In this document: positions 7,656 through 53,111 of the stretch, piece after piece
Layout of the letters: every line of letters starts with the position of its first letter
Numbering within the stretch: position 1 is the stretch's first letter
Program-made: the position numbers and the translations under genes
Assembly (NCBI GenBank): GCA_037176725.1
Contig: JAZBRS010000060.1
Location: 59,858,001-59,922,000 of the forward strand
Reading direction: 5' to 3'
Source: Posidonia oceanica
Lineage: Eukaryota; Streptophyta; Magnoliopsida; Alismatales; Posidoniaceae
Length of the DNA: 64,000 nucleotides
The notes under the pieces: generated by a model
The model's input: the letters and a program-made list of their open reading frames with translations, nothing else
What the model was told of the DNA's origin: nothing
The model's database searches: none

Positions 7656-7658
7656 CAT

Positions 7659-7753: not shown

Positions 7754-7792
7754 TTGGCCAGCGCATCCATGGCATCGAAAGCAGAGAGTGAT

Positions 7793-24140: not shown

Positions 24141-24154
24141 TGAAAAATAAGTGA

Positions 24155-27329: not shown

Positions 27330-27334
27330 CCCAG
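27330..27334. other. Expected target-site duplication of element 1 (CCCAG)
   Basis: The five bases following the TG...CA end of element 1. Only one side is visible. They belong to the extra ORF of element 2, whose reading continues directly from here. Confidence 0.55.
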
Positions 27335-28568: not shown

Positions 28569-29315
28569 ATGATTTCTTCTCATCATTACCTCACCCCCTC
28601 TTTGCCGGCCGATAAGTCCGATATCTTATCAATCAATAATTCTCATCATTACCTCATCCCCCTCTTTAGCAATAGTTCTCATCATAATCTCACCCCCTCT
28701 TTAGCAATAGCTCTCATCATGTTCTCCCCCCCTCTTTATCTCATCATTACCTCACCCCCTCTTTGCCGGCCGATAAGTCCGATATCTTATCAATCAATCA
28801 CTCTCATCATGATCTCATCCCCCTCTTTAGCAATAATTCTCATCATGATCTCATCCCCCTCTTTAGCAATAACTCTCATCATGACCTCATCCCCCTCTTT
28901 AGCAGTAATTCTCATCATGATCTCATCCCCTCTTTAGCAATAGTTCTCATCATGATCTCATCCCCCTCTTTAACAATAGTTCTCATCATTACCTCATCCC
29001 CTCTTTATCTCATCATTACCTCATCCCCTCTTTTGCCGACCGATAAGTCCGATATCTTATCAATCAATCATTCTCATCATGATCTCACCCCCCTTTTTAT
29101 CTCATCATTACCTCACCCCCTCTTTGCCGGCCGATAAGTCCGATATCTTATCAATCAATCACTCTCATCATGATCTCATCCCCCTCTTTAGCAATAATTC
29201 TCATCATGATCTCATCCCCCTCTTTAGCAATAACTCTCATCATGACCTCATCCCCCTCTTTAGCAATAACTCTCATCATGATCTCATCCCCTCTTATCAA
29301 ACAATCAATCACATT
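28569..29315 (+). repeat. Element 2 tandem repeat block (about 36 bp unit)
   Basis: Inverted counterpart of 6781-7655. A unit with core CTCATCATGATCTCATCCCC is repeated about 16 times, interrupted by units with the crossing CGG/CCG and GATAAG/CTTATC arms (about 28599, 28768, 29037, 29127). Confidence 0.85.
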
Positions 29316-30255
29316 CTAGGCTGATATCCGAAACTATCAAACAATCAATCACATTCTAGGCTGATATCCGAAACTATCAAACAATCAAGCACTCTCAGGC
29401 TGATATCCTAAACTATCTGCTCTCAGGCTGATAACCTAAACTATCATCTGGGCCGATCCATGGTTGGCCCACAGTTGTGTTATACGGCTGACATCCAGTA
29501 ACTGTCCCTTGCAATTGCGGTTTCCAGTTGATAGGTCTGTAAACTATCCTCCAGTTGATAGGTCTGTAAACTATCCACCAGTTGATAGGACTGTAAACTA
29601 TCGCTAGGCTGATATCCTAAACTATCACCAGCAATTGCATTATACGGCTGATATCCAGTAACTATCCCTCATCATTGCGCGTTTCCAGTTGATAGGTCTG
29701 TAAACTATCCACCAGTTGATAGGTCTGTAAACTATCCGCCAGTTGATAGGCCTGTAAACTATCCGCCAGTTGATAGGACTGTAAACTACCACGCGCAATC
29801 ATGTTATACGGCTGACATCCAGTAACTGTCCCTCGCAATGCCGTTTCCAGTTGATAGGACTGTAAACTATCCTCCAGTTGATAGGTCTGTAAACTATCCG
29901 CCGGTTGACAGGACCGTAAACTGTCGCTCCAGTTGATAGACTGTAAACTATCCGGCATTTGCGTTATACGGCTGATATCCAGTAACTATCACTCATGGTT
30001 TGTGGCTTCCAGTTGATAGGTCTATAAACTATCCGCCAGTTGATAGGTCTGTAAACTATCCGCCAGTTGATAGGTCTGTAAACTATCCGCCAGTTGATTG
30101 GACTGTAAACTATCCCACACAACCATGTTATACGGCTGATATCCAGTAACTATCACTCACAACTGCTTCCGGTTGACAGGACCGTAAACTGTCATTCTAG
30201 GCTGATAACCTAAACTATCACTCCCGGTTGATAGGACCGTAAACTATCCGGACGA
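29316..30255 (+). repeat. Element 2 PK-A pseudoknot repeats
   Basis: Same family as 5782-6780, here in plus sense. Stem A is CAG/CTG or CGG/CCG, with both arms always matching in the units I read. Stem B is mostly GATAG/CTATC, with GACAG/CTGTC units near 29902 and 30173. Exceptions with one mismatched arm: CTACC near 29785 and GATTG near 30096. Confidence 0.8.
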
Positions 30256-30285
30256 TAAGCCCGTCACCTTATCACCTTTTTTCGA
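30224..30285 (+). repeat. Satellite-like segment inside element 2
   Basis: In order: a GATAGG unit (30230-30247), a GATAAG unit (about 30253-30271) and a T-rich tract, preceded by CCGG. The satellite monomer has exactly this order: GATAGG hairpin, GATAAG hairpin, then ACTTTTCTTTTCC tract. The element 1 counterpart is at 5761-5830 in inverse orientation. It is a likely source, or sister, of the satellite monomer. Confidence 0.65.
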
Positions 30286-30811
30286 CGTGGCCTTGTCCCA
30301 GGAAGGCAAAGTCACGCAAACCCTTTTTTTTTTTTTGCGGTAGGAGAGTTGGCCTCTCTCCCCTCGCACCCTTTTTTCTTTTCTGCTAGCTTGCTCCCCG
30401 GGCGGGGACAGGCTGCACCCTGTTTTTCCCTTGCTTTGTCGCGCAAGTCTGGCCTCCCTGCCAGATCCTCGCGCCACATCGCGCCTTTTTATCATTCCTC
30501 TTGCATCATCTTAGCACTTCCTCAGCTAGCACTGCATATTACTTTAACATCATCACCATCACTTGCACAGCATCAGCATCTATTCTAGCTGCACTAACTT
30601 TTATGCTAACTTCTTGCATTGCATTTGCATTAGCATGCATCGCACTTAGCATTATCCATCTGTACCTAGCATCTTGCATTGCGGCAACGGGCTACGATCT
30701 TCGGTGCATCCGCCGAATAAGTAGCTCACGCCCATAGCAACCCGCTGCTCCCGCCGGTCAGATGGGGTGTCTTGTCAACCCTGAGCAGCGGCCTCGCTCC
30801 GCTTGACCTTG
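30286..30811 (+). other. Element 2 non-coding segment before PPT
   Basis: Matches element 1 at 5248-5781. It holds TGCATT/TTGCATTAGC-type words and no supported gene. Confidence 0.5.
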
Positions 30812-30814
30812 CTC

Positions 30815-30827
30815 AGGGAGGGGCATC
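30815..30827 (+). other. Polypurine tract of element 2
   Basis: AGGGAGGGGCATC directly before the LTR start TGTTGACACC, identical to the tract of element 1. Confidence 0.85.
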
Positions 30828-33800
30828 TGTTGACACCCCATCTTGACAGGCTTGGATCCTTGGGGCCCTCCTGGTGATTGCTGGACTCAAACCTAACCCA
30901 AAACCAAACCCTAATCCTCTTCTTTACCCTCCAAAATCAGCCCATCTTGACCTAGGCCTTTACCCCTCTTCCCAAGCTCAAAACCTAACCAAAACCCATA
31001 GGAAAACCCACCAACACCCACTTAGCAAGCCTACCCAAGAACTTAGAAATTTCCAAACCTAGACCATTCCCAAAAACTCTAGAAAACCTAGGCAAAACTC
31101 CCCTTTTTCTACACCTTGAAACCCCTCCAAAACCTTCTTAGAATCAAACCAAAACTTCAGGACCAACACCTCAAACCCTAGACTACCCACTCACCAATTT
31201 TCACTCCATTCCAAGACCCTTAAGACCCCCTTTCATCCAAATTATCCTTTTCTCTCTTTGGGATTATCATTTTCTCTCTCCTCTCTCTCTCCTGATTATC
31301 ATCTCTCTTTTCATCCCCTTTTTGCCCTTTTTCTGGCCTGACTGTGGGCCCCCTTTGTACTTCTATCCCTTCTCTACCTTATTCCAATTTTTACTTTATT
31401 TTTAGCCTTTTTTCTGAATTTTAAAAATCATTTCTCTCCAACCTATCTCTTTTCCTTTTATTTCCCTCTTTTTCCCTTTTCCTTCTTCCTTCTCTTTTCC
31501 TTTGCCTTCTCTTGCAAAAATCCATAAAAACCCCTAAAAATCTGTAAAACCCCAAAACATAAAAGAAACAAATCAGAACCCTAAGAAAAACAATTAAAAA
31601 ACATTAAACAAGCAATTAAAAACCCAAACTTAACTAAATTAAGCTAAAAAGAAAACCAAGCATGTAAGCTAAAAAATGCAAAACAAATCAAAAGAAAACA
31701 CTGAAAAATCAAGGAAAAAACTAAAATAAAACCAAAACCTACCAAAAGTAAAAACCGCATCAAAAGAATTAAAAAAACAAACCCTAAAAAGAAGAATTAA
31801 AAAACAAACACTAAAACAAGTAATTAAAGAAACAAAAAGACTTAACCTAACAAACCTAAGAAAAAACAAATTAAAAAACTTAATTAAAAGGAAAAGAAAA
31901 ACACATTTAAAAGACTTAAAAACACCCCATCAAACCAGGGAAATCTAACTAAAAACTTCAAGAAAAATCAACAAATAAAAATCAAAGCATAATTTAAAAG
32001 ACTTAAGAAAGAAAAAAACCTAAGAAGACTAAAACTTAAAAACCTGAAAACAACCCTGGTTAATACGAAAATAAACCCTAAAAAATCCTAATCAATATCC
32101 TAAGTGTCCAACAAGGAAAACACAATTCTTAAAACAATTTAAAAAAGGTTTAACAAACATTTAATCAAGTGAAAACTAATTAAAAGCAAAACCAAAACCT
32201 TAAAACCCTAATCAAGCCCAAAACACACTAACTAACCCAAAACAGTCATTAAAAAATCTAATTAAAATCCTAACTCACAACACAACCTTTCTAGTATTTT
32301 TACTTATTTTTAATTTATTTTTCTAATTTTATTTCCTTTCTTTTTCCTCTATTTCTTTCTTTCTTCCTTCCTCATTTTCTTTCTTTTTTCTTCCTTACTG
32401 GGCCTGTCAGCTCGTCTCTCCCTTTCTTCTTTATTTCTTTTTTTCTTTTTCCGGCCCGGCCCGCCTTCTTCACCCCTTCTTCCTCCTTCACCTTCTTTGC
32501 ATTTTTCCACCGGTTTTCTCCCACGGCCAGCAACAGTCCTCCCTCCTTCATTTTTGAATTCAAGCTTCCATCCTGTCACCTACAGAGCTCGCCGCTCCTC
32601 TCTTCTCTCAGCACCATTTCCGGGAGGCATTGAATGCCGATCGCCTCGCCGACGCCCGTCGTTTCTGCTGTAGTGCCGCCGGTGGAATTCAAACCTCCAG
32701 CGCGCCCAGCAGCCTCCGTCCTCTGATAAAAAGCCAGCCCTTCAATCCTCCTTCATCGCTTTTCGACGCTCCGAGAGAGAGAGAGCTGAAATCCAGAGAA
32801 TTCTCCAGCAAAACCTTCTTCTTCTCCCTCTGAAAATTCAGCAGAACTTCCCCCTCCTTTTCCAGCAATCCAAGCCCCATCCAAGCCTCAATTTCTCTCC
32901 CAATTGATCCCCCAAGTTCACCCAGAAACCCAGCAATCTTCCTCCACCCTTCCACGGCCTTTCCACCACCCAGAACCACCACCAGCTCACCTGAATCCAC
33001 CGCAGAAGCTAACTACAAGCCAACTCCAATCTCTCCTGAAATTACCTTCACCACAGTCCACCGCATCTTCCCAAATCCTTCCCCAACACTCACCTGCACC
33101 CCACCTTCCAGAAACACCAGACCTTCAACCCTATCCCTCACCACCGCCTGAGATTTCCACTACAAACACCTTGCCTCACTTCTGTCCAGAATCAGCCCGT
33201 CTTTCCAATTTCTCGCCACACGCTCCAGAACCCCAATCCAACCATCCAAACCCCTTCCCCGAGCCTCCAGCTACCTCCCGGAAGGCTCCACCAGCTCCGA
33301 CGAGCAGCAAACAACTTCCCCCACCTCCGGCTACCACCTGTGGACCCAAAGTTGCCGAATCGCCGCCTGAGCTTCGAAGCTCGCGTCCGGACGACTGGGA
33401 AGCACCAGAAGAACATTCTGAAGCAGCTCCAACCCTCGCGAGCAGCCGACAGCACCCGCAGCGACCGGACAGACTCCACCGGCAACCTCTGAAGCCACCG
33501 TCGTCGGTAGGGCATCTCAGACGCGGAACCAGGTAAATTCCACTTCCCTTAGCCTCCTCTTCCTCCCCTCTTGCTTCTCCAGCCTTTAGAATAGGGTCTC
33601 CGGCTCTCCTGCGCCGAGTCAAGCTCCGGCCAGGGTCTTCTTCTCCGGCGAGTCTCTCCGGTCGTCCCGCAGCTCCGTCCAGCAGAACGCAGCTCCGGTG
33701 GTTGCCTGGAGTTCTCACGAGCCCGGTTTCGCCCGATTCGGAACACAGACAGCGTAGCTGAGCACTTAGACAGCACGTTTACTTTCCTTGCTTTGCCTCT

Positions 33801-34260
33801 TCCCACTTAGAGCACACCTTGAGCATTCATTTAGGCATTCATAGGCACATAGGCATTCAATCCTGCATTTCCCTGCGTATGCGAGCGTAAGCCTAGAAAG
33901 ACCGATTCTCGGGCGTGTCGGGGGTGCCTAACACCTTCCCCGCACGTAACAGGAGTCCTTGCCCTGTCTTTTGGCCCGCAATGACCATACTACCCTTATC
34001 CTAGGCTAGAGTCATCTCATTTGCATGTATTTGCATTTGTTTCCTTTGCATTGCTTTGCTTTGCATTTCTTGCTTGGTTTTGCGTGTTAATTCACGCATT
34101 TCCCCGGTTTTCCTTGTCTCCCGTTAATAGACATGGTGGCGACTCTGATTTGTCTTATCTTTCTCTTTTCTCCTCGATTTCAAGTGTTTTCGAGTCGAGC
34201 CTCTTCCTCGGATCCTATCGCCGCTAAATAGCGAGCCTGATTCCGATCGGGATCGCTACA
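30828..34260 (+). repeat. 3' LTR of element 2 (3433 bp, internally deleted)
   Basis: Starts TGTTGACACC and ends GATCGCTACA. It is collinear with the solo LTR but lacks about 2.1 kb: the sequence leaves the alignment near 33697 (solo LTR about 56158) and rejoins at GCCTGGAGTTCTCAC near 33704 (solo about 58288). The lost part includes the stem-loop and TATA-like region and the TGCAAATGC-rich stretch. The open frame at 32904-33536 is P/S-rich and not clearly coding. Confidence 0.93.
34137..34145 (+). other. PBS-like word inside U5 of element 2
   Basis: TGGCGACTC, about 115 bp before the LTR end, as in the other LTR copies. Confidence 0.5.
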
Positions 34261-37200
34261 CTATCCTCTCGGTCCATAAGTGCGAAACTTATCACTTTTC
34301 ATTTCCTTTGCGATCGATAGGTCCAAAACCTATCCTTCAAGTCAATATGTCCGAAACATATCACTTTCCATTTCCTTTGCGGACGATAGGTCCGAAACCT
34401 ATCCTTCCGGTCCAAAAGTCCGAAACTTATCACTTTTCGTCTCCCTTTTAGTCGATATGTCTGAAACCTATCCTTCTTATCGATAAGTCCGAAACTTATC
34501 ACTTTTCTTTTCCTTTGTAGTCGATAGGTTTGAAACCTGTCCTTCCTGTTGATAAGTCAGAAACTTATCACTTTTCTTTTCCTTTGCGGTCGATAGGTCC
34601 GAAACCTATCCTTCTGGTCGATAAGTCCGAAACTTATCACTTTTCTTTTCCTTTGCGGTCGATCGGTCCGAATCCGATCCTTCCGGACGATAAGTCTGAA
34701 ACTTATCACTTTTCTTTTCCTTTGCGGTAGATAGTTCCGAAACCTATCCTTCCGGTTGATATGTCCGAAACTTATCACTTTTCTTTTCCATTGCTGTCGA
34801 TAGGTTCGAAACCTATCCTTCCAGTCGATAAGTCTGAAACTTAGCACTATTCTTTTCCTTTGCGGTCGATATGTCCGAAACATATCACTTTTCCTTTCCT
34901 ATGCAATCGATTGGTCTAAAACCTATCCTTCCAGTCGATATGTCCGAAACTCAACACTTTTCTTTTCCTTTGCGGTCGATAGGTCAGAAATCTATCCTTC
35001 CAGTCCAAAGCCTATACTTCCGGTCGATAAGTCCGCAACTTATCACTTTTCTTTCCTTTGCGGTCGATTGCTCCGAAACCTAACCTTCTGGTCGATATGT
35101 CCAAAACTTATCACTATCCATTTTCTTTGCGGTCGATAGGTCCGAAACTTAACACTTTTCTTTTCCATTGCGGTCGATCGATCCGAAACCTAACCTTCCG
35201 GTCGATAAGTCCAAAACTTATCACTTTTCTTTTCCTTTTCAGTGGATAGGTCCGAAACCTATCCCACCGGTCCATAAGTCCAAAACTTATCACTTTTCTT
35301 TCCTTTACGGTCGAAAAGTTCGAAACCTTTCCATCAGGTCGATAAGTTCGAAACTTATCACTTTTCTTTTCCTTTGCGGCTGATTGGTCCAAAACCTTTC
35401 CTTCCCATCGATAAGAACCGAAACTAATTACTTTACTTTTCCTTTGCAGTCGATAGGTTCGAAACATATCCTCCCGTCGATAAGTCTGAAACTTGTCACT
35501 TTTCTTTTCCTTTGCGGTTGACCGGTCCGAAACCTATCCTTCCAGTCGATAAGTCCGAAACTTATCACTTTTCTTTTCCTTGGCGGTCGATAGGTCCGAA
35601 ACCTATCCATTCGGTCTTTAAGTTCGAAACTAATCACTTTTCATTACCTTTCGGTCGATAGGTCCGAAACCTATCCTTCCGATCGATAAATTCGAAACAT
35701 ATCACTTTTCTTTTCCATTGCGATCGATAGGTCCGAAACCTATTCTTCCAATCGATAAGTCCGAAACTTATCACTTTTGTTTTCCTTTGCGATCGATAGG
35801 TCCGAAACCTATCCTTCGGGTCGATAAGTCTGAAACATATCACTTGTCTTTTCCTTTGTGGTTGATTGGTCTGAAACCTATCCTTTCGGTCGATAAGTCT
35901 GAAACTTATCACCTTTCTTTTCCAGTGCGGTCGGTAGGTCCGAAACCTATCCATCCGGTCGTTAAGTCCAAAATTTATCACTCTTCTTTTCCATTGTGGT
36001 CGATAGGTCCGAAACCTATCCTTTCGGTATTTAAGTCTGAAACTAATCACTTTTCATTACCTTTGCGGTCGATAGGTCCGAAACCTATCCTTCGGTCGAT
36101 AAGTTCAAAACTTATCACTTTTCTTTTCCCTTGCGTTCGATAGGTCCGACACCTATCCTTCCAATTGATAAGTCAGAAACTTATCACTTTCCTTTTCCAT
36201 TGCGGTCCATAGGTCCGAATCCTCTCCTTCTGGTCGATTAGTCTGAAACTTATCACTTTTCTTTTCCTTTATGGTAGATAGGTCCGAAACCTATCCTTTC
36301 GGTCGATAAGTCCGAAACTTGTCACCTTTCTTTTCCATTGCGGTCGATAGGTCCGAAACCAATTCTTCCGGTCGTTAAGTCCGAAACGTATCACTTTTCT
36401 TTTCCTTTGCAGACGATAGGTCCGAAACCTATCCATCCATTCAATAAGTCTGAAACTTTTCACTTTTCATTTACCTTGCGGTAGATATGTCCGAAACCTA
36501 TCCTCCTGCTCGATAAGTTCGAAACTTATCACTTTTCATTTCCTTTGCGATCGATAGGTCCAAAACCAATCCTTCCTGTCGAAAAGTCCGAAACTTATCA
36601 CTTTCCATTTCCTTTGCAGTCGATAGGTCCGAAACCTATCCTTCCGGTCCATAAGTCCGAAACTTATCACTTTACTTCTCCATTGTGGTCGATATGTCCA
36701 AAACCTATCCATCTGATCTATAAGTCCGAAACTTATCAATTTTCTTTTCCTTTGCGGTCGATAGGTCCGAAACCTGTCCTTCCTGTCGATAAGTCTGAAG
36801 CTTATCACTTTTCTTTTCCTTTGCGGTCAATTGGTCCGAAACCTGTCCTTCCGGTCGATAAGTCCGAAACTTATCACTTTTCTTTTCCTTTGTGGTCGAT
36901 AGTTCCGAAACCTATCCTTCCGGTTAATAAGTTTGAAACTTATCACTTTTCTTTTCCTTTGCGGTCGATAGGTCCGATATCTATCCTTCCCGTCGTTAAG
37001 ACCGAAACTAATCACTTTACTTTTCCCTTGCGGTCGATAGGTTCGAAACATATCCTTCCCGTCGAAAAGTGAGAAACATATAACGATTCTTTCCATTGCG
37101 GTCGATCGGTCCGAAACCTATCCTTCCGGTCGATAAGTCCGAAACATATCACATTTCTTTTTAATCACGGTAAATATGTCCGAAACTTATCCTTCGGGTC

Positions 37201-37400
37201 GATACGTCAGAAACTTATCACTTTTCTATTCCATTGCGGTTGATAGGTCCGAAACCTATCCTTCTGGTCGATAAGTCCTAAACTTATCACTTTCCTTTTC
37301 CTTTGCGGTCGATAGGTCTGAAACAAATCCTTTCGGTCTTTCTGTCCGAAACTAATCACTTTTCATTACCTCTCCGGTCGATTGGTCCGAAACCAATCCT
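34261..37400 (+). repeat. Large duplicated block inside the satellite, copy 1
   Basis: Matches 44405-47230 through shared variant monomers. At the start the offset is 10144 bp (147 monomers), for example the CAATATGTCC monomer at 34343 and 44487. Later the offset shifts by several monomers, so the block has gained or lost units. A third related block is at about 47400-49900, offset 2898 bp (42 monomers) from copy 2. Confidence 0.75.
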
Positions 37401-37859
37401 TCCGGTCGATAAGTTCGGAACTTATCACTTTTCTTTTCCTTTGCGATCGATAGGTCCGAAACCTATTCTTCCAATCGATAAGTCCGAAACTTATTACTTT
37501 TCTTTTCCTTTGCGATCGATAGGTCCGAAACCTATACTTCGGGTCGATAAGTTTGAAACTTATCACTTTAATTTTCCATTGCGGTTGATAGGTCCGAAAC
37601 CTATCCTTCTGGTCGATAAGTCCGAAACTTATCACCTTTTTTTTCCAGTGCGGTCGGTAGGTCTGAAACCTATCCTTCTGGTCGTTAAGTCCGAAACTTA
37701 TCAATTTTCTTTTCCTTTGCGGTCGTTAGGTCCGAAACCAATCCTTTCGTTCGATAAGTCTGAAACTTATCACTTTTCTTTTCCATTGCAGTCGATCAAT
37801 CCGAAACCTAACCTTTCGGTCGATAAGTCTGAAACTTATCACTTTTCTTTTCCATTGCG

Positions 37860-40800
37860 GTCAATCAATCCGAAACCTATCCTTCCAGTCGATAAGTCCG
37901 AAACTTATCACTTCTCTTTTCCTTTGCGGTCGATAGGTCCGAAACCTATCCTTTCGGTCGATAAGTCTGAAACTCATCACGTTACGTTTCCATTGAGGTC
38001 GATAGGTCCGCAACCTATCCTTCCGGTCGATAAGTCCGAAACTTATCACATACATTTTCCTTTGCGGTCGATAGGTCCAAAACCTATCCGTCCGGTCGAT
38101 ATGTTTGAGATTTGTCACTTTTCATTTCCTTTGCGGTCGATAGGTCCGAAACCAATCCTTCCGGTCGATAAGTCTAAAACTTATCACTTTTCTTTTCCAT
38201 TGCGGTCGATAGGAACGAAACCTAAGCTTCAGGTCATTAAGTCCGAAACTTATCACTTTTCTTTTCCTTGGCGGTCGATTGGTCCGAAACCTATCCTTCC
38301 GGTCGATAAGTCCGAAACTTTTCACATTTCTTTTCCATTGCTGTTGATAGGTCCGAAACCTATCCAACCGATCGATAAGTCTGAAACTTATCACTTTTCT
38401 TTTCCATTGTGATCGAAAGGTTCGAAACCTATCCTTCCGGTCGATAAGTCCTAAACTTATCAATTTTCATTTCCTTTGTCTTCGCTAGGCCCGAAACCTA
38501 TCCTTCCAGTCGATAAGTGTGAAACTTATCACTTTTCATTTCCTTCGCGGTTGATAGGTCCGAAACCTATCCTTTCGGTCGATAAGTTCGAAACTTATCA
38601 CTTTTCTTTTCCTTCACGGTCGATATGTCCGAATCCTATCCTTCCGGTCCATAAGTCCAAAACTTACCAATTTTATTTTCTTTTACGGTCGATAGGTCCG
38701 GAACCTATCCTTCCGGCCGATATGTCCAAAACTTATCACATTTCTTTTCCTTTGCAGTCGATAGGTCCGAAACCTGTCCTTCCGGTCGATAAGTCTGAAA
38801 CTTATCACTTTTCCTTTCCTTAGCGGTTGATAGGTCCGAAACCAATCCTTCCGATTGATAAGTCCGAAACTTATCACTTTTCTTTCCTTTGCGGTCGATA
38901 GGTCAGAAACCTATCCATTCGGTCGATAAGTCGGAAATTTATCACTTCTCTTTTCCTTTGCGGTCGATAGGTCTGAAACCTATCCTTTCGGTCTCCAAGA
39001 CCGAAACTAATCACTTTTCATTACCTTTGCGGTCGATAGGTCCGAGACCTTTCCTTCCGATAGATAAGTTCGAAACTTATCACTTTTTTTTTCCATTGTG
39101 ATTGATAGGTCTGAAACCTATCCTTCCAATCGATAAGTACGAAACTTATCACTTTTCTTTTCCGTTGCAGCCGATAGGACCAAAACCAATCCTTCTGGTC
39201 GATAAGTCTGTGACTTATCAATTTTCTTTTCCTTTCTGGTTGATAGGTCCGAAACCTATCCTTCCAGTCGATAAGTCTGAAACTTATCACTTTTCGTTTC
39301 CTTTACGGTCGATAGGTCCGAAACCTATCCTTCCGGTCGATAAGTCTGAAACTTATCACGTTACTTTTCCATTGAGGTCGATAGCTCCGCAACCTATCCT
39401 TCTGGTCGATAAGTCCGAAACTTATCACATATATTTTCCTTTGCGGTCGATAGGTCCAAAACCTATCCTTCCGGTCGATATGTTTGTGATTTGTCACTTT
39501 TCATTTCCTTTGCGGTTGATAGGTCCGAAACCTATCCGTCCGGTCGATAAGTCTAAAACTTGTCACTTTTCTTTTCCTTTGCAGTCGATAGGTACGAAAC
39601 CAAACCTTCTGGTCATTTAGTCCGAAACTTATCACTTTTCTTTTCCTTTGCGGTCGATTGGTCCGTAACCTATCCTTCCGGTTGATAAGTCCGAAACTTA
39701 TCACTTTTCTTTTCCTTTGCTGTTGATAGGTCCGAAACCTATCCTACCGATCGGTAAGTCTGAAACTTTTCACTTTTCTTTTCCTTTGCGGTCGAAAGGT
39801 TTGAAACCTATCCTTCCGGTCGATAACTCCGAAACATATCACTTTTCTTTTCCATTGCGGTCGATCGATCCGAAACCAAACCTTCCGGTCGATAAGTCTG
39901 AAACTTATCACTTTTCCTTTCCATTGCGGTCGATTGATCCGAAACCTATCCTTCCAGTCGATAAGTCCGAAACCTATGACTTCTCTTTTCCTTTGCGGTC
40001 GATAGGTCCGAAACCTATCCTTCCGGTCGATAAGTCTGTAACTTATCACGTTACTTTTCCATTGAGGTCGATAGCTCCGCAACCTATCCTTCCGGTCGAT
40101 AAGTCCGAAACTTATCACATTTATTTTCCTTTGTGGTCCATAGGTCCAAAACCTATCCTTCCGGTCGATATGTTTGAGATTTGTCACTTTTCATTTCCTT
40201 TGCGGTTGATAGGTCCGAAACCTATGCTTCCGGTCCATAAGTCTGAAACTTATCACTTTTCATTTCCTTTGCGGTCGATAGGTACGAAACCTAACCTTCC
40301 AGTCATTAAGTCCATAACTTATCACTTTTCTTTTCCTCTGCGGTCGATTGGTCCGAAACCTATCCTTCCGGTCAATAAGTCCGAAACTTATCACTTTTCT
40401 TTTCCTTTGCTGTTGATAGGTCCGAAACCTATCCTACCGATCGATAAGTCTGAAACTTATCACTATTCTTTTCCTTTGCTGTCGAAAGGTTCGAAACCTA
40501 TCCTTCCGGTCGATAAGTCCTAAACTTATCAATTTTCATTTCCTTTGTCTTCGCTAGCCCCAAAACCAATCCTTCCAGTCGATAAGTCTGAAACTTATCA
40601 CTTTTCATTTCCTTTGCGGTTTATTGGTCCGAAACCGATCCTTCCAGTCGATAAGTCCGAAACTTATCACTTTTCTTTTCCTTCACGGTCGATAGGTCCG
40701 AATCCTATCCTTCTGGTCGACAAGTCCGAAACTTACCACTTTTATTTTCTTTTACGGTCGATTGGTCCGAAACCTATCCTTCCGGTCGATATGTCCGAAA

Positions 40801-41500
40801 CTTATCACATTTCTTTTCCTTTGCAGTCGATAGGTCCGAAACCGGTCCTTCCGGTCGATAAGTCTGAAACTTATCACTTTTCTTTTCCTTTGCGGTTGAT
40901 AGGACCGAAACCAATCCATCCGGTCGATATGTCTGAAACTTATCACTTTTCTTTCCTTTGCGGTCGATAAGTCCGAAACCTATCCGTCCGGTCGATAAGT
41001 CTGAAATTTATCACTTTTCTTTTCCTTTGCGGTTGATAGGTCCAAAACCTATCCTTTCGAACTCCAAGACCAAAACTAATCACTTTTCATTACCTTTGCG
41101 GTCGATAGGTCCGAGACCTTTATCACTTTTCTTTTCCATTGCGATTGATAGGTCTGAAACCTATCCATCCAATCGATAAGTACGAAACTTATCACTTTTC
41201 ATTTCCTTTGCGGCCGATAGGACCAAAACCAATCCTTCTGGTCGTTAAGTCTGTGACTTATCAATTTTCTTTTCCTTTCTGGTTGTTAGGTCCGAAACCT
41301 ATCCTTCCAGTCGATAAGTCCGAAACTTATCACTTTTCGTTTCCTTTGCGGTCGATAGGTCCGAAACCTATCCTTCCGGTCTATAAGTCTGAAACTTATC
41401 ACGTTACTTTTCCATTGTGGTCGATAGCTCCGCAACCTATCCTTCCGGTCAATAAGTCCGAAACATATCACCATTCTTTTCCAGTGCGGTCGGTAGGTCT
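37860..41500 (+). repeat. Higher-order repeat with 690-bp step (10 monomers)
   Basis: The marker TTACTTTTCCATTGAGGTCG occurs at 39361 and 40051, exactly 690 bp apart. Its variant at 37982 is 1379 bp before, and a further one at 41404 is 1353 bp after. A second marker, TCTTCGCTAG, recurs near 38479 and 40548 (about 30 monomers). The same set of variant monomers reappears at 62670-63530, beyond the solo LTR. Confidence 0.75.
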
Positions 41501-44404
41501 GAAACCTATCCAGCCGGTCGTTAAGTCCGAAACTTCTCACTTTTCTTTTCCATTGCGGTCGATAGGTCTAAAACCTATCCATCCGTTCGATAAGTCTGAA
41601 ACTTATCACTTTCTTTTCCTTTGTGGTCGATCGGTCGGAAACCAATCCTCCCGGTCGATAAGTCCGAAACTTATCACTTTTCATTTCCGTTGCGGTCGAT
41701 AGGTCAAAAACCTATCCTTCCTGTCGATAAGTACGAAACGTTTCACTTTCCATTTCCTTTGCGGTCGATAGATCCGAAACCTATCCTTCCGGTCCATAAG
41801 TCCGAAGCTTATCACTTTTCTTTTCCTTTGCTGTCGATAGGTCTGAGACCTATCCTTCTGACCAATAAGTCCGAAACTTATCACTTTTCTTTTCCCTTGC
41901 GATCGAAAGGTCCGAAACCTGCCCTTCTTGTCGATAAGTCAAAAACTTATCACTTTCCTGTACCTTTGTGGTCGATAGGTCCGAATCCTATCCATCCGGT
42001 TGTTAAGTCCAAAACTTACAACTTTTCTTTTCCTTTGCGATCGATAGGTCCGAAACCTATCCTTCCGGTCGATAAGTCCGAAACTTATCGCATTTCTTTT
42101 CCTTTACGGTCGATAGGTCCGAAACCAATCCTTCCAGTCGATAAGTCCGAAACTTATCACTTTTCTTTCCCTTTGTGGTCGATTGCTCCGAAAGCTATCC
42201 ATCCAGTCGATAAGTCCTAAACTTGTCACTTTTCTATTCCTTTGCAGTCGATATGTCCGAAACTTATCACTTTTCTTTTCCTTTGCAGTCGATAAGTCCA
42301 AATGCTATACATCCGGTCAATCAGTCTGAAACTTATAACATTTCTTTCCATTGCAGTCGATTGGTCTGAAACCTATCCTTCCGGTCGATTAGTCCGAAGC
42401 TTATCGCTTTTCTTTCCCTTTGCGGTCGATCTGTTCGAAACCTGACCATCTGGTGATAAGTCCGAAACTTATCACTTTTGTTTTCCTTTACGGTTGATAG
42501 GTTTGACACCTATCCTTCTAGTCGATAAGTCCGAAACTTATCACTTTTCTTTTCCTTCGCGGTCGATCGGTCCGAAACCTATCCTTCCAATCGATAATTC
42601 CGAAACTTATCACTTTTGTTTTCCATCGCGGTCAATAGGTCTGAAACCAATCCATCATGTCGATAAGTCCGAAACTTATCACTTTTTTTTCCTTTGCGGT
42701 CGATAGGTCCAAAACCTATCCTTCCGGTCGATAAGTCCGAAACTTATCACTTTTCTTCTCCTTTGCGGTCGATAAGTCCGAAACCTATCCTTCCGATCGA
42801 TAAGGCCGAAACATATCACTTTTCTTTTCCTTCCCGTCGAAAAGACCGAAACTAATCACTTTTCGTTTCCGTTGCGGTCGATAGGTCCGAAACAAATCCT
42901 TCCCGTCGAAAAGTCCGAAACTTATAACTTTTCTTTCCTTTGCGGTCGATAGGTCCGTAACCTATCCTTCCGGACGATAAGTACGAAACTTATCACTTTT
43001 CTTCTTCTTTACGGTAAATAGGTCCGAAACCTATCCTGTCGGTCGATAAGTCCGAAACTTGTCACTTTTCATTTCCTTTGCGGTCGATTGGTCCAAAACC
43101 TATCCACCCGGTCGATAAGTTTGAAACTTATCACATTTCCTTCCTTTGCGGTCGATAGGTCTGAAACCTATCCTTCCAGTCGAAAAGTCCGAAACTATTC
43201 ACTTTTCTTTTCCTTCGCGGTCGATAGGTTTGAAACCAATCCTTCTTGTCGCTAAGTCCAAAACTTATCACATTTCTTTTCATTTGCGGTCGATTGGTCC
43301 GAAGCCTATCGTTTCAGTCGATAAGTCCGAAACTTGTCATTTTCTTTTCCTTTACAGTCGATAGGTCCGAAACCTATCCTTCTGATCGATAAGTCAGAAA
43401 CTTATCACTTTTCTTTTCCTTTGCGGATGATAGGTCCGAAACCAATCCTTCCGATCGATAAGTCCGAAACTTATCACTTTTCTTTCCTTTGCGGTCGATA
43501 GGTCTGAAACCTATCCATTCGGACGATAAGTCCGAAACTTATCACTTTTCTTTCCTTTGCGGTCGATTGGTCCGAAGCCTATCGTTCCGGTCGATAAGTC
43601 CGAAACTTGTCACATTTCATTTCCTTTACGGTCGATAGGTCCAAAACCAATCCTTCTGATCGATAAGTCCGAAACTTATCACTTTTCTTTCCTTTATGGT
43701 TGATAGGTCTAAAACCTATCCATCCGGTCGATAAATCTGAAACTTATCACTTTTCTTTTCCTTTGCGGTCGATAGGACCGAAACCTATCCTTCCGGTCGA
43801 TAAGCCTGAAACTTATCACTTTTCTTTTCCAATGCGGTCAATAGGTCCGAAACCTATCCTATCAGTCAATAAGTTCGAAACTTATCACTTTCCTTTTCCT
43901 TTGCTGTCGATAGGTCCGAAACCTTTCCTTCCGGTCGAAAAGTCTGAAACTTATCACTTTTCTTTTCCTATGCGGTCGAGAGGTCCATAACCTACCCTCC
44001 CGGTCGATAAGTCCTAAACTTATCAATTTTCATTTCCTTTGCCATCGATAGGCCCGAAACCTATCCTTCCGATTGATAAGTCTGAAACTTATCACTTTTC
44101 ATTTCTTTGCGATCGATAGGTCCAAAACCTATCCTTCTGGTCGATAAGTCTGTGACTTATTACTTTTCTTTTCCTTTGTGGTTGATAGGTCCGAAACCTA
44201 TCCATCCGATCGATAAGTCCGATACTTATCACCTTTCTTTTCCATTGCGATCGATAGGTACGAAACCTATCCTTCCAGTCGTTAAGTCCGAAACTTATCA
44301 CTTTTCTTTTCCTTTGCGGACGATAGGTCCGAAACCTATCCATCCGTTCGATAAGTCTGAAACTTATCACTATTCTTTTCCTTTGCTGCCGATAGGTCGG
44401 AAAC

Positions 44405-47230
44405 CTATCCTCTCGGTATATAAGCGCGAAACTTATCAATTTTCATTTCCTTTGCGATCGATAGGTCCAAAACCTATCCTTCAAGTCAATATGTCCGAAA
44501 CATATCACTTTCCATTTCCTTTGCTGACGATAGGTCCAAAACCTATCCTTCCGGTCCAAAAGTCCGAAACTTATCACTTTTCGTCTCCCTTGTAGTCGAT
44601 ATGTCCGAAACCTATCCTTCTTATCGATAAGTCCGAAACTTATCACTTTTCTTTTCCGTTGCGGTCGATAGGTCCGAAACCTGTCCTTCCTGTCGATAAG
44701 TCAGAAACTTATCACTTTTCTTTTCCTTTGTGGTCGATAGGTACGAAACCTATACTTCCAGTCGATAAGTCCGAAACCTATCACTTTTCTTTTCCATTGC
44801 GGTCGATTGGTCCAAAACCTATCCTTACGAACGATAAGTCCGTAACTTATCACTTTTCTTTTCCTTTGCGGTCGATAGTTCCGAAACCTTTCCTTCCGGT
44901 CGATATGTCCAAAACTTATCACTTTTCTTTTCCTTTGCTGTCGATAGGTCCGAAACCAATCCTTCCAGTCGATAAGTCTGAAACTTAACACTATTCTTTT
45001 CCTTTGCGGTCGATATGTCCGAAACATATCACTTTTCCTTTCCTATGCGGTCGATTGGTCTGAAACCTATCCTTCCAGTCAATAAGTCCGAAACTCATCA
45101 CTTTTCTTTTCCTTTGCGGTCGATAGGTCAGAATTCTATCCTTCCGGTCCAAAGCCTATACTTCCGGTCGATAAGTCCGCAACTTATCACTTTTCTTTCC
45201 TTTGCAGTCGATTGCTCCGAAACCTAACCTTCTGGTCGATAAGTCCAAAACTTATCACTATCCACTTCCTTTGAGGTCGATAGGTCCGGAACCTATCCTT
45301 CCAGTCGATAACTCCGAAGCTTATCACTTTTCTTTTCCTTTGCAGCCGATCGATCCGAAACCTAACCTTCCGGTCGATAAGTCCGAAACTTATCACTTTT
45401 CTTTTCCTTTTCGGTGGATAGGTCCGAAACCTATCCCACCGGTCCATAAGTCCGAAACTTGTCACTTTTCTTTCCTTTACGGTCGAAAAGTTCGAAACCT
45501 TTCCATCCGGTCGATAAGTTCGAAACTTACCACTTTTCTTTTCCTTTGCGGTCGATAGGTCCGAAACCTTTCCTTCCCGTAGATAAGAACCGAAACTAAT
45601 TACTTTACTTTTCCTTTGCGGTCGATAGGTTCGAAACATATCCTTCCCGTCGAAAAGTCAGAAACTTGTTACTTTTCTTTCCTTTGCGGTCGATAGCTCC
45701 GAAACCTATCCATCCGGTCGATAAGTCCGAAACTTATCACTTTTCTTTTTCTTTATGGTAAAAAGGTCCGAAACGTATCCTTCCGGTTGATAAGTCTGAA
45801 ACTTGTCACATTTCTTTTCCTTTGCGGTTGACCAGTCCGAAACCTATCCTTCCAGTCGATAAGTCCGAAACTTATCGCTTTTCTTTTCCTTGGCGGTCGA
45901 TTGGTCCGAAACCTATCCTTCCGGTCGATAAGTTCGAAACTAATCACTTTTCATTACCTTTCGGTCGATAGGTCCGAAACCTATCCTTCCGGTCGATAAG
46001 TTCGAAACTTATCACTTTTCTTTTCCTTTGCGATCGATAGTTCCGAAACCTATTCTTCCAATCGATTAGTCCGAAACTTATCACTTTTGTTTTCCTTTGC
46101 GACCTATAGGTCCGAAACCTATCCTTCGGGTCGATAAGTCTGAAACATATCACTTTTCTTTTCCTTTGTAGTTGATTGGTCTGAAACCTATCCTTCCGGT
46201 CGTTAAGTCCGAAACTTATCACCTTTCTTTTCCAGTGCGGTCGGTAGGTCAGAAACCTATCCATCTGGTCGTTAAGTCCGAAACTTCTCAATTTTCTTTT
46301 CCTTTTCGGTCGATAGGTCAGAAACCTGTCCTACCATTTGATAAGTCTGAAACTTATCGCTTTACTTTTCCTTTGCGGTCGATAGGTCTGAAACCTAACC
46401 TTCCAATCGATAAGTCTGAAACTTATCACATTTCTTTCCTTTGCGGTCGATAGGTCTGAAACCTATCCATTAGGTCGTTAAGTCCAAAATTTATCACTCT
46501 TCTTTTCCTTTACGGTCGATAGGTATGAAACCTATCCTTTCGGTATTTAAGTCTGAAACTAATCACTTTTCAATACCATTGTAGTCGATAGGTCCGAAAC
46601 CTATCCTTCCAATCGATAAGTCAGAAACTTATCACATTCCTTTTCCATTGCGGTCCATAGGTCCGAATCCTCTCCTTCTGGTCGATTAGTCTGAAACTTA
46701 TCACTTTTCTTTTCATTTATGGTCGATAGGTCCGAAACCTATCCTTCCGGTCGATAAGTCCGAAACTTGTCACCTTTCTTTTCCATTGCGGTCGACAGGT
46801 CCGAAACCAATTCTTCCGGTCGTTAAGTCCGAAACTTATCACTTTTCTTTTCCTTTACGGACGATAGGTCCGAAACCTATCCATCCATTCAATAAGTCTG
46901 AAACTTTTCACTTTTCATTTCCTTTGCGGTAGATATGTCCGAAACCTATCCTCCCGGTCGATAAGTACGAAACTTATCACTTTTCATTTCCTTTGCGGTC
47001 GATAGGTCCAAAACCAATCCTTCCTGTCGAAAAGTCCGAAACTTATCACTTTTCTATTCCATTGCGGTTGATAGGTCCGAAACCTATCCTTCTAGTCAAT
47101 AAGTCCGAAACTTAACACTTTCCTTTTCCTTTGCGGTCGATAGGTCCGAAACATATCCTTTCGGTCTTTCTGTCCGAAACTAATCACTTTTCATTACCTC
47201 TCCGGTCGGTTGGTCCGAAACCAATCCTTC
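44405..47230 (+). repeat. Large duplicated block inside the satellite, copy 2
   Basis: Counterpart of 34261-37400. The bases at 44405-44409 (CTATC) and onward match the flank right after element 2, so this block shows the target site before insertion. Confidence 0.7.
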
Positions 47231-47399
47231 CGGTCAATAAGTCCGAAACTAATCAACTTTCTTTTCCATTGTGGCCGATAGGTCCGAAACCAATCCTTCC
47301 GGTCGTTATGTCCGAAACTTATCACTTTTCTTTTCCTTCGCAGATGATAGGTCCGAAACGTATCCATCCGTTTGATAAGTCTGTAACCTATCCCTTTCT

Positions 47400-49900
47400 T
47401 TTCCTTCGCGGTCGATAGGTTGGAAACCTATCCTCCCGGTCGATAAATCCGAAACTTATCACTTTCCATTTCCTTTGCGGTCGATAGGTCCGAAACCTAT
47501 CCTTCCGGTCCAAAAGTCCGAAACTTATCACTTTTCGTCTCCTTTGCAGTCGATATGTCCGAAACCTATCCTTCTTATCGATAAGTCCGAAACTTATCAC
47601 TTTTCGTTTCCTTTGCGATCGATAGGTCCGAAACCTGTCCTTCCTGTCGATAAGTCAGAAACTTAACACTTTTCTTTTCCTTTGCGGTCGATAGGTCCGA
47701 AACCTATCCTTCCGGTCGATAAGTCCGAAACTTATCACTTTTCTTTTCCTTTGCGGTCGATTAGTCCGAAACTTATCACTTTTCTTTTCCTTTGCGGTCG
47801 ATAGTTCCGAAACTTATCACTTTTCTTTTCCTTTGCTGTCGATAGGTCCGAAACCTATCCTTCCCGTCGATAAGTCTGAAACTTAACACTTTTCTTTTCC
47901 TTTGCGATCGATATGTCCGAAACTTATCACTTTCCTTTTCCTATGCGGTCGATTGGTCTGAAACCTATCCTTCCAGTCGATAAGTCCGAAACTCATCACT
48001 TTTCTTTTCCTTTGCGATCGATAGGCCAGAAATCTATCCTTCTGGTCCAAAGCCTATACTTCCGGTCGATAAGTCTGAAACCTATCACTTTTCTTTCCTT
48101 TGCGGTAGATTGGTCCGAAACCTAACCTTCGGTCGATAAGTCCAAAACTTATCACTATCCATTTCCTTCGTGGTCGTTAGGCCCGAAAACTATCCTTCCT
48201 ATCGATAACTCCGAAACTTTTCACTTTTCTTTTCCATTGCGGTCGATCGATCTGAAACCTAACCTTCCGGTCGATAAGTCCGAAACTTATCACTTTTCTT
48301 TTCCTTTGCGGTGGATAGGTTCGAAACCTATCCCACTGGTCCATAAGTCTGAAACTTATCACTTTTCTTTCCTTTACGGTCGATAGGTTCGAAACCTTCC
48401 CTTCCGGTCGATAAGTTCGAAACTTATCACTTTTCTTTTCCGTTGCTGTCGATAGGTCCGAAACCCTTCCTTCCCGTCGATAAGAACCGAAACTATTTAA
48501 TTTACTTTTCCGTTGCTGTCGATAGGTTCGAAACATATCCTTCCCGTCGAAAAGACAGAAACTTATAACTTTTCTTTCCTTTACGGTCGATAGCTCCGAA
48601 ACCTATCCATCCGATCGATAAGTCCGAAACTTATCACTTGTCTTTATCTTTACGGTAAATAGGTCCGAAACCTATCCTACCGGTCGATAAGTCTGAAACT
48701 TGTCACATTTCTTTTCCATTCCGGTTGATAGGTCCGAAACCTATCCTTCCGATCGATAAGTCCGAAACTTATCGCTTTTCTTTTCCTTTGTGGTCGATAG
48801 GTTCGAAACATATCCTTTCGGTCTTTAAGTCCGAAACAAATCACTTTTAAATACCTTTCCGGTCGATAGGTCCGAAACCTATCCTTCCGGTCGATAAGTT
48901 CGAAACTTATCACTTTTCGTTTCCTTTGTGATCAATAGGTCCGAAACCTATTCTTCCAATCGATAAGTCTGAAACTTATCACTTTTGTTTTCCTTTGCGA
49001 TTGATAGGTCCGAAACCAATCCTTCGGGTCGATAAGTCTATAACTTATCACTTTTCTTTTCCTTTGTCGTTGATTGGTCCGAAACCTATCCTTCCAGCCG
49101 ATAAGTCCGAAACATATCACCATTCTTTTCCTGTGCGGTCGGTTGGTCCGAAACCAATCCAACCGGTCGTTAAGTCCGAAACTTCTCACTTTTCTTTTCC
49201 TTTGCGGTCGATAGGTGTAAAACCTATCCTTCCGTTCGATAAGTCTGAAACATATCACTTTCTTTTCCTTTGCGGTCGATAGGTCGGAAACCTATCCTCC
49301 CGGTCGATACGTCTGAAACATATCACTTTTCATTTCCGTTGCGGTCGATTGGTCGAAAACCTATCCGTGAAGTCGATATGTCCGAAACTTTACACTTTCC
49401 ATTTCCTTTGCGGTCGATAGGTCCGAAACCTATCCTTCCAGTCCATAAGTCCAAAACTTATCACTTTTCTTTTCCTTTGCTGTAGATAGGTCCGAGACCT
49501 ATCCTTCCGACCGATAAGTCCGAAACTTATCACTTTTCTTTTCCTTTGCGTTCGATAGGTCCGAAACCTGCCCTTCTTGTCGATAAGTCAGAAACTTATC
49601 ACTTTCCTTTTCCCTCGCGGTCGATAGGTCCGAATCCTATCCATCCTGTCAAAAAGTCCTAAACCTACAACTTTTCTTTTTCATTGTGGTAAATAGGTCC
49701 GAAACCTATCCTGCCAGTCGATAAGTCCGAAACTGATCACTTTTCATTTCCTTTGCGGTCGATAGGTCCAAAACCTATCCATCCAGTCGATAAGTTTGAA
49801 ACTTATCACATTTCCTTCCTTTGCGATCGATAGGTCTGAAACCTATCCTTCCGGTCGATAAGTCCGAAACTTTTCACTTTTCTTTTCCTTCGCGGTCGAT
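47400..49900 (+). repeat. Large duplicated block inside the satellite, copy 3
   Basis: Shares the unusual monomer with CCAAAGCCTATACTTCC (about 48048) with 45150 and 35006, and follows the same order of variants as copies 1 and 2. Confidence 0.65.
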
Positions 49901-52900
49901 AGGTTTGAAACCAATCCTTCTGGTCGACAAGTCCAAAACTTACCACTTTTCTTTTCCTTTGCGATCGATAGGTCCGAGGCCTGTCGTTGCGGTTGATAAG
50001 TCCGAAACTTGTCACTTTTCTTTTCCATTGCGGTCGATCGGTCCGAAACCTATCCTTCTGATTGATAAGTCTGAAACTTATCACTTTTCTTTCCTTTGCG
50101 GTCGATAGGTCCGATGCCTATTGTTCTGGTCGATAAGTCTGAAACTTGTAACTTTTCATTTCCTTTGCGGTTGATAGGTCCGAAACCTATCCTTCTGGTC
50201 AATAAGTCCGAAACTTATCACTTTTCTTTTCCTTTGCGGTCGATAGGTCCGAAACCTATCCTATCGGTCAATAAGTGCGAAACTTATCACTTTCCTTTTC
50301 CTTTGCTGTCGATAGGTCCGAAACCTTTCCTTCCGATCGATAAGTCCGAAACCTATCACTTTTCTTTTCCTTTGCGGTCGATAGGTCCGAATCCTATCCT
50401 ACCGGTCAATAAGTCCAAAACTTATCACTTTCCCTTTCCTTTGCTGTCGATAGGTCTGAAACCTTTCCTTCCGGTCGATAAGTTCGAAACTTATCACTTT
50501 TCTTTTCCTTTGCGGTCGATAGGTCCATAACCTAGCCTCTCGGTCGATAAGTCCAAAACTTATCAATTTTCATTTCCTTTGCCAACGATAGGCCCGAAAC
50601 CTATCCTTCCAGTCGATAAGTCAGAAACATATCACTTTTCATTTCCATTGCAGTTGATAGGTCCGAAACCTATCATTCTGGTCGATAAGTCTGAGACTTC
50701 TCACTTTTCTTTTCCTTCAAGGTCGATAGGTCCGAATCATAACCGTCCGGTCGAAAAGTCCGAAACTTATCACTTTTCTTTTCTTTTGCAGTCGATATGT
50801 CCGAAACCTATCTTTCCGGTCGATAAGTCCGAAACTTATCACTTTTCTTTTCCTTTGCAGTCGATAGGTCCGAAACCTATCCTTCCGGTCGATATGTCCG
50901 AAACTTATCACTTTTCCTTTCCTTAGTCGTCGATAGCTCCAAAAACTATCCTCCCGGTCGATAAGTCCTAAACTTATCACTTTTCATTTCCTTTGCGTTC
51001 TACAGGCCCGAAACCTTTCCGTCCGGTCGATAGGTCTAAAACTTATCACTTTTCATTTCCTTTGCGGTCAATAGGTCCGAAACCAATCCTTCCGGTCGAC
51101 CAGTCTGAAACTTATCACTTTTCTTTTCCTTCGTGGTCGATAGGTCAGAAACCAATCCTTCTGGTCGATAAGTCTGAAACTTATCACTTTTCTTTTCCTA
51201 TGTGGTCGATAGATCCAAAACCTATCCTTCTGATCGATAAGTCCGAAACATATTACTTTTCTTTTCCTTTGCGGTCGATAGGTCCGAAACCTATCCTTCC
51301 GATCGATAAGTCTGAAACTTATCACTTTTCTTTCCTTTGCGGACGATAGGTCTGAAACCTATCCATCCGGTCGATATGTCCGAAACATATCACTTTTCTT
51401 TTCCTTTGCAGTCGATAGGTTCGAAACCTATCCTTTCGGTCTTCATGTCCGAAACTAATCACTTTTCATTACCTTTGCAGTCGATAGGTCCGAAACCTAT
51501 CCTTCCGGTCGATAAGTTCGAAACTTATCACTTTTCTATTCCTTTGCGGTCGATAGGTCCGAAACCTGTCCCTTCAATCGATATGTCCGAAACTTATCAC
51601 TTTTCTTTTCCTTTGCGGTCGATAGGTCCGAAACCGATCCTCCTGGTCGATATGTCTGAAGCATATCGCTTTTCTTTTCCTTTGTGGTTGATCGGTCCGA
51701 AACCTATCCTTCCTGTCGGTAAGTCCGAAACTTATCACTTATCTTTTCCATTGCGGTCGATAGGTCCGAAACCTATCTTTCCGTTCGTTAAGTCCGAAAC
51801 ATATCACTTTACTTTTCCTTTGCGATCGATTGGTCCGAAACCTATCCTTCCGTTCGATAAGTCTAAACTTATCACTTTTCTTTTCCTTTGCTGTTGATAG
51901 GTCGGAAACCAATCCTCCGCGTCGATAAAAGCGAAACATATCACTTTTCATTTCCGTTGCCGTCGATAGGTCAAAAACCTATCCTTCCAGTCGATATGAA
52001 CGAAACTTATCACTTTTCATTTCCTTTGCGGTTGATTGGTCTAAAACCTATCCTTCTGGTCGATAAGTCCGAATGTTATCTCTTTTCCTTTCTTTTGCTT
52101 TCGATTGGTCTGAAACCTATCCTTCCGATCGATAAGTCTAAAACTTATCACCTTTCTTTTCCATTGCGGTCGATAGGTCCGAAACCTGTCCTTCCGGTCA
52201 ATAAGTCTGAAACATATCACTTTTCTTTTCCTTAGCGGTCGATAGGTCCGAAAACTATCCTTCCAGTCGATAAGTCCGAAACTTATCACAATTCTTTTCC
52301 TTTGCAGTCGATAGGTCTGAAACCTATTTTTCCGATCGATAAGTCCGAAATTTCTCACTTTTCTTTTCCTTCCCGTCGAAAAGACCGAAACTAATCACTT
52401 TTCATTTCCTTTGCGGTCGATAGGTCCGAAACATATCCTTCCCGTTGGAAAGTCTGAAACATATAACTTTTCTTTCCTTTACGGTCGATAGGTCTGAAAC
52501 CTGTCCTTCCGGTCGATAAGTATGAAACTTTTCACTTTTCTTTTTCTTTGCGGTAAATAGGTCCGAAACCTACCCTACCGGTCGATAAGTCCGAAACTTA
52601 TCCCTTTTCATTTCCTTTACGGTCGATAGGTCCAAAACCTATCCATCCAGTCGATAAGTCTAAAACTTATCACATTTCTTTCCTTTGTGGTCGATAGGTC
52701 AGAAACCTATCCTTCCGGGCGATAAGTCCGAAACTTATCACTGTAATTTCCCTTTACGGTCGATTGGTCCGAAACCTATCCATCCGGTCGATAAGTCTGA
52801 AACTTATCACTTTACTTTTTCGATGCAGTCGATAGGTTCGAAACCAATCCTTCCGGTCAATAAATCTGAAACTTATCACTTTTCTTTTCCATTGTGGTCG

Positions 52901-53106
52901 ATAGGTCCGCAACCTATCCTTCCGGTCAATTAGTCCGAAACTTTTCACTTTTCTTTTCCTTTGCGGTCGATAGGTCCGAAACCTTTCCTCCCAGTCGATA
53001 AGTCCTATACTTATCAATTTTCATTTCCTTTGTCTTCGATAGGCCCGAAACCTATCCTTCGGGTCGATAAGTCTGAAACTTATCACTTTTCACTTACTTT
53101 GCGGTT

Positions 53107-53111
53107 GATAG
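53107..53111. other. Target-site duplication of the solo LTR, left (GATAG)
   Basis: GATAG directly before TGTTGACACC. The same five bases follow the LTR at 58848-58852. Joining the flanks restores a normal satellite monomer. Confidence 0.95.

Follow-up and report, generated by a model that had tools for sequence, protein, structure and literature searches.

Satellite birth from the 3' untranslated region (3'UTR) of retrotransposons is already known in plants (PMC7004042). Nine satellites of Lathyrus sativus, the FabTR families, have been reported to be of Ogre origin (Vondrak et al., Plant J. 101:484, PMC7004042), and tandem repeats in the hypervariable 3'UTR of Tat elements have been proposed to seed satellites (Macas et al. 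2009, as cited in PMC7004042). Here we describe a 69-bp satellite of Posidonia oceanica and the long terminal repeat (LTR) retrotransposons nested in it, in a 64-kb stretch of contig JAZBRS010000060.1 (C59); this whole stretch is called the window. The satellite probably arose from tandemly arrayed copies of the last hairpin unit in the 3'UTR of a Tat/Ogre-like family, family 2; the array would have expanded in situ on C59, and the invading elements A, B and D, family 1, would be younger settlers. Family 2 is a diverged sister family that carries short arrays, and the long C59 zone is referred to as the mega-array. We read 344 kb around the window, where positions that are negative or above 64000 lie outside it, and took genome-wide counts over the 2.96-Gb assembly.

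The present case resembles the Ogre-derived satellites of L. sativus (PMC7004042) in the dispersed short arrays downstream of gag-pol, in the expansion of some to long arrays and in the Ogre elements found in expanded arrays. It differs in that a single zone, in one assembly, is expanded, and in that the inspected invaders belong to a family other than the probable source. The site and the proposed seed are the same as for the Tat 3'UTR repeats (Macas et al. 2009, via PMC7004042), whereas the unit here combines two hairpins with a pyrimidine tract, and the family-1 tails that were read contain it once. A long region between pol and the 3' LTR is shared with Retand, in which tandem arrays are frequent (Vicient 2025, PMC11963269). 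Unlike the Retand elements of that paper, most of which carry an antisense TRP28 open reading frame (ORF) and which have LTRs of 315-1194 bp, the elements described here have a sense plant mobile domain (PMD) ORF and LTRs of ~3.4-5.9 kb.

The satellite unit is built like a unit at the end of the 3'UTR repeats of elements A and B. An earlier, sequence-only reading of this DNA had stated that a GATAGG hairpin, a GATAAG hairpin and a T/C tract follow each other in the same order and orientation in the satellite and in B, and inversely in A, and this was borne out. The spacer words that it regarded as shared were also found, but A has TTATCGT rather than TTATCAC behind the stem. The stretch 30224-53111, which it treated as one feature, is really the end of B's UTR, B's 3' LTR and a satellite block (Table 1). 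Both units were aligned with the doubled 69-bp unit, and in the controls either the query or the satellite was dinucleotide-shuffled 2000 times. The B unit (62 bp) scored 48, against a mean of 13.5, a standard deviation (sd) of 2.4 and a maximum of 26 for its shuffles, and a mean of 13.7 and a maximum of 27 when the satellite was shuffled. The A unit (70 bp) scored 55 (own shuffles: mean 14.7, sd 2.6, maximum 28; shuffled satellite: mean 15.3, maximum 28), and its match extends over the whole 69-bp period and on to the CGG that follows, interrupted by a 4-bp gap and a 1-bp insertion. The likeness between satellite and UTR unit is real and covers the full period.

An exact 50-bp piece of the satellite consensus occurs at 47 places in the genome, 43 of them on C59 at 58.345-60.091 Mb, all on the plus strand, and one each on C6, C18, C43 and C44. 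At each of the four dispersed loci (L029-L032) 3.5 kb was read, and all four are short arrays, of 5.6, 13.5, 13.9 and 17.3 units of 69 bp (5.6, 11.0, 9.4 and 16.4 copies in the main rows of Tandem Repeats Finder). L031 shows the full order: a PMD (72.6% identical to that of A), UTR, the array (1440-2401), the UTR end, a polypurine tract (PPT) and an LTR starting TGTAGACACCCCG. L029 has a PMD (71.2%) and the array head, beyond which the sequence resembles no feature that was searched for. The array and a UTR end with a PPT-like word are present in L030 and L032, with no PMD within the stretch read. The arrays lie inside elements, downstream of the coding region, with the PMD read upstream in two loci and the UTR end with its PPT read downstream in three. 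On the minus strand of L030 (~2660-2480) a short LTR-like fragment runs nearly straight into the array, likely a deletion derivative without coding region, and in L032 (~515-530) an LTR-like end (GGGGTGTCAATA) touches the short array, where a family-1-like element may have inserted.

Family 2 differs from family 1 by about 23-29%, with 71-73% identity in the PMD (2 loci) and 74-77% in the UTR end (3 loci). Between contigs, the array flanks align wherever the same side was kept, namely the head in one of six pairs (L029-L031, 84%) and the tail in three of six (L030, L031 and L032, 79-90%); the array was therefore passed on together with the element. Next to the 69-bp type, the arrays hold a 71-bp GATGAG/GATGGG type (L032, and part of L030 and L031) and many tract lengths. 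Genome-wide there are 242 + 265 exact matches to the family-2 PPT-LTR word, 215 (115 + 100) matches to a pattern for the array tail, the first 100 of them listed, and 25 (7 + 18) to one for the array head, none of the latter on C59; the head matches are pattern positions only. Among the 44 tails listed within the contig range covered by both the tail and the PPT listings, five (4 loci) are followed on the same strand by the family-2 PPT-LTR word 1,001-1,336 bp downstream, against a mean of 0.015 in a shifted control, and for the remaining 39 no exact PPT lies within 3 kb. Heads and tails were paired by eye on C6 (70.847 Mb), C19 (202.40), C22 (5.86) and C25 (139.12), with spans of ~0.7-1.9 kb. 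These pairs take up 4 of the 13 heads that lie on the contigs spanned by the tail listing.

A 35-mer spanning the tract has 433 exact matches (410 + 23). Among the 100 matches listed, 72 fall in the C59 zone (from 58.342 Mb) and 28 at ~20 dispersed loci, and a match at C59:60105790 stretches the zone to ~1.76 Mb (58.342-60.106 Mb by pattern). All listed C59 copies have one orientation, as in a long array. The satellite blocks in the 344 kb total ~152 kb, all on the plus strand, and the lone minus-strand match is the unit in an element's tail. Monomers of the mega-array are on average 9.3% away from the consensus, with T>A the most frequent change (2978 cells). In the largest block, pairwise identity is 83-84% at 14 lags, from adjacent monomers up to a lag of 400 units; when every lag as far as 599 was scanned, peaks appeared at 140 (88.0%), 280 (86.0%) and 26 (85.8%) units. 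Large duplicated blocks within the array measure 39 kb (identity 90.7%, offset ~9.7 kb) and 10.6 kb (96.7%). A DNA search with the 69-mer, in which common words are skipped, gave no match. Among the papers listed in literature searches no title or abstract describes the satellite, which does not establish its absence from print.

Consensus identity and monomer distances both set family 2 closer to the mega-array than family 1. The consensus of L029 is 98.6% identical to the mega-array unit (one base off), that of L030 100%, L031 100% (68 columns) and L032 95.2%, against 81.0% and 82.5% for the two family-1 units, out of six, whose coverage was sufficient. The nearest mega-array monomer lies at a distance of 0.032 (L029), 0.059 (L030), 0.055 (L031) and 0.082 (L032), compared with 0.175 and 0.159 for the family-1 units.

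We therefore favour descent of the satellite from a family-2 array as its likely origin. The unit would have been duplicated during replication of the element, by slippage or template switching, giving the short arrays; A's unit has the word CGG at either end, a short homology that may have been available for the first duplication. One array copy on C59 may then have expanded by unequal exchange and large block duplication, before family-1 elements would have settled in it. The sequence-only reading had derived the satellite from the 3' region of the retrotransposon that now invades it. Its first half holds, a Tat/Ogre-like 3'UTR being the probable source, but the source probably lies in the sister family 2, its placement in the invaders being unsupported, and the elements with several tandem units that it predicted do exist, at all four dispersed exact-consensus sites.

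Several observations weigh against this origin. Pattern searches detected no remnant of family 2 bordering the C59 zone, whose edges themselves are unread: an edge-type pattern had no match genome-wide, and all 25 array-head matches lie on other contigs. The monomer phylogeny proposed earlier was built from 69-bp rows of 120 mega-array monomers, 43 element monomers and 2 UTR units, and it did not polarise the exchange. Placing the 27 monomers of L029-L031 takes 25 label changes, and they form no parental clade; since they are scattered among those of the mega-array, the tree gives no direction. Over all labels the tree has 28 changes against a shuffle mean of 42.5 and minimum of 39 (200 shuffles), much of which comes from L032 (16 monomers, 8 changes). 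The direction rests on distribution and diversity within one assembly, and because the four loci were found through the exact consensus, their identity to it is partly by choice.

In an alternative reading, an older, unrelated satellite would have lent a piece to a family-2 element that then spread it by retrotransposition. The three array consensuses that equal the satellite or differ from it by one base, the intermixed monomers of L029-L031 and the lack of an edge remnant by pattern are all in keeping with such a capture. We consider it unlikely on account of the wider distribution of the unit. At 13,671 places (6,827 + 6,844) the conserved word GTCCCAGGAAG stands 5-35 bases behind a GATAAG hairpin, with differing loops and tracts among the 100 matches listed, so that the second half of the unit is widespread in such tails; capturing a finished satellite would not put a homologous hairpin beside the same word so often. 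The 71-bp type and the varied tract lengths within the family-2 arrays, and the single long zone as opposed to many dispersed short arrays, also speak against capture.

The family-1 elements entered the array after its formation. Seven insertions into the array were found within the 344 kb, five with matching 5-bp duplications (GCGGT, CTATC, GATAG, ATAGG and CTTAT), one with CTTAT/CCTAT (one change) and one with CCAGT (one side read). Identity between the two LTRs of an element is 98.3-99.4% for A, B, D and E, which, set beside the 9.3% of the monomers, makes the array much older than the insertions if rates are comparable. Five of the seven insertions lie in the satellite stems GATAG/CTATC and GATAAG/CTTAT, counting the one with a single change, and could speak for a homing of family 1 to these stems. 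We hold this to be improbable, and homing was not upheld as a rule, as GCGGT (both sides) and CCAGT lie elsewhere, and a stem word starts 6 of the 24 LTR-end matches beside satellite-like words genome-wide, some of which may be chance. Outside the array the duplications are CCCAG (A) and CCCAT (E), and plant LTR elements have been reported in general to prefer 5-bp duplications with A/T-rich centres (PMC6911290).

Origin of the satellite from the invading family itself, as first proposed, is very improbable. The full-length alignment well above shuffles would fit it, and family-1-type units can amplify too: at C2:18393924-18395194 nine matches of the family-1-type double-hairpin pattern are spaced by multiples of 72 bp throughout (pattern positions only), which suggests a separate amplification of such a unit, probably a short array. 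Against it stand the lower identity and greater monomer distance of family 1 given above and the copy number in its tails. All six PPT-anchored tails in the 344 kb have one unit in the last 700 bases, and the whole 3'UTRs of A, B and D contain one each, so that there the unit is not the start of an array. A chance likeness, which short motifs and a simple tract might suggest, is refuted: the scores lie ~14-16 sd over shuffles and the same consensus recurs in dispersed elements.

The hairpins could themselves have a role. It is conceivable, though we doubt it, that they are a maintained part of the RNA/DNA cycle of the element and the engine of satellite birth, with paired changes keeping the stems in elements, template switching at stems repeatedly multiplying the unit (69-, 71- and 72-bp arrays, two families) and stems decaying after escape to the chromosome. 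Array copies share ancestry, and the following stem-pairing counts are accordingly not independent events. In the family-2 arrays, 251 of 258 cells of hairpin 1 are paired (2000 shuffles: mean 233.8, maximum 242), and hairpin 2 shows no excess (249 of 258; mean 249.1). In the mega-array, hairpin 1 lies above all 300 shuffles by a small margin (8190/9414, 87.0% against 86.1%; mean 8107, maximum 8152) and hairpin 2 shows no excess over 300 shuffles (8468/9636, 87.9% against 87.8%; mean 8463, maximum 8491). The 27-bp repeats of family 1 have 258 of 260 cells paired, a weak test with 9 distinct rows (43/45; shuffle mean 41.3, maximum 43). In single-strand DNA folding the satellite unit had a z of -2.8 against shuffles, and the units of B (-0.4) and A (-1.2) folded no clearly better than shuffles, which speaks against stronger hairpins in family 1. 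If the proposal were true, the decay of stem pairing would serve both as a clock for the conversion of element to satellite and as a marker of its direction.

Paired stem changes were seen in the UTR repeats of A, B, D and L029-L032 (GATAG/CTATC, GACAG/CTGTC and GGTAG/CTACC; GATAGG/CCTATC and GATGAG/CTCATC). Single changes dominate in the mega-array (hairpin 1: 1876 single, 174 double). Compensatory evolution in the mega-array was considered and rejected: stem pairs numbered 147 against 105.6 expected, yet slid controls gave ratios of 0.58-2.54 and unrelated position pairs up to 16.8.

A, B and D are members of a huge Tat/Ogre-like family, whose PPT-LTR junction AGGGAGGGGCATCTGTTGACACCCC has 25,437 exact places (12,767 + 12,670) against none for a backward-pattern control. 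Tat/Ogre elements are recognised by a second RNase H between RNase H and integrase (PMC6317226), and the domain order in A is RVT_1, RT_RNaseH, RVT_3 and rve. A PMD ORF has been reported in 57% of Ogre elements (PMC6317226) and is present in A as PF10536; a protein search with this ORF gave 12 matches, ten with identities of 52-85% and two, from Nicotiana, with 22-23%. The prevailing Ogre layout is described as two ORFs, gag-prot and pol, parted by a spacer or intron (PMC6317226). As A has a single continuous ORF of 2968 amino acids, we name it an Ogre-like Tat element and not an Ogre proper.

The features are nested, element A on the minus strand lying inside the PMD gene of B on the plus strand, and B, with CTATC on either side, inside the satellite (Table 1). 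In the gag-pol ORF of A, a G-patch domain sits between protease and reverse transcriptase, and the gag-pol of D has an internal deletion relative to it. About 2.3 kb present in B's 5' LTR is missing from its 3' LTR and was probably deleted after insertion. LTR C has no internal part and is therefore a solo LTR. The UTR hairpin repeats of element E hold an inserted LTR beside GATAG/CTATC (one side read). The satellite was also considered as the inside of a non-autonomous element (LTR-leader-satellite), which was rejected when the LTR end and the primer-binding-site (PBS)-like word were located and the presumed leader turned out to be LTR.

Table 1. Features of the window and of the neighbouring sequence on C59
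Feature	Position	Strand	Remarks
3' LTR of element A	1..5233, extends past left window end to -710	-	99.4% to A's 5' LTR; 5-bp duplication CCCAG both sides
3'UTR of element A; tandem hairpin repeats of 27, 35 and 55 bp	5234..8581	-	
Satellite-like unit, single, at end of A's UTR repeats	5761..5830	-	alignment score 55
PMD ORF of element A	8582..9919	-	PF10536, E 7.9e-20
gag-pol ORF of element A	11306..20212	-	gag, G-patch, reverse transcriptase, RNase H, RVT_3 second RNase H, integrase; protease a weak match under cut-off
Leader of element A	20213..21384	-	PBS-like GTGGCGACTCCGCTGGGGA adjoins LTR (read directly)
5' LTR of element A	21385..27329	-	TGTTGACACC...GATCGCTACA in earlier reading; end here GATCAGGATCGCTACA
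Remainder of element B's PMD gene, split by element A	27330..27979	+	90.6% to A's PMD; Pfam matches under cut-off
3'UTR of element B, PPT AGGGAGGGGCATC at its end	27980..30827	+	
Satellite-like unit, single, at end of B's UTR repeats	30224..30285	+	alignment score 48
3' LTR of element B	30828..34260	+	98.9-99.3% to pieces of B's 5' LTR at -51330 and -17663..-12810
69-bp satellite block of the mega-array	34261..53111	+	opens with B's duplication CTATC
Solo LTR C within satellite	53112..58847	+	GATAG both sides
Satellite, same orientation	58848..64000	+	runs on to 73216 past window
Element D	73217-98491, outside window		in satellite, ATAGG both sides
Element E	about -44600 to -37703, outside window		nested in B's 5' LTR, CCCAT both sides

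Within one assembly, the locus makes it possible to distinguish clearly between elements that carry short arrays, an expanded array and those that settled later, and an element that lies inside a satellite need not be its parent. If the contrast in stem pairing between element arrays and the mega-array holds in more families, the direction of exchange between elements and satellites would become readable without outgroups.

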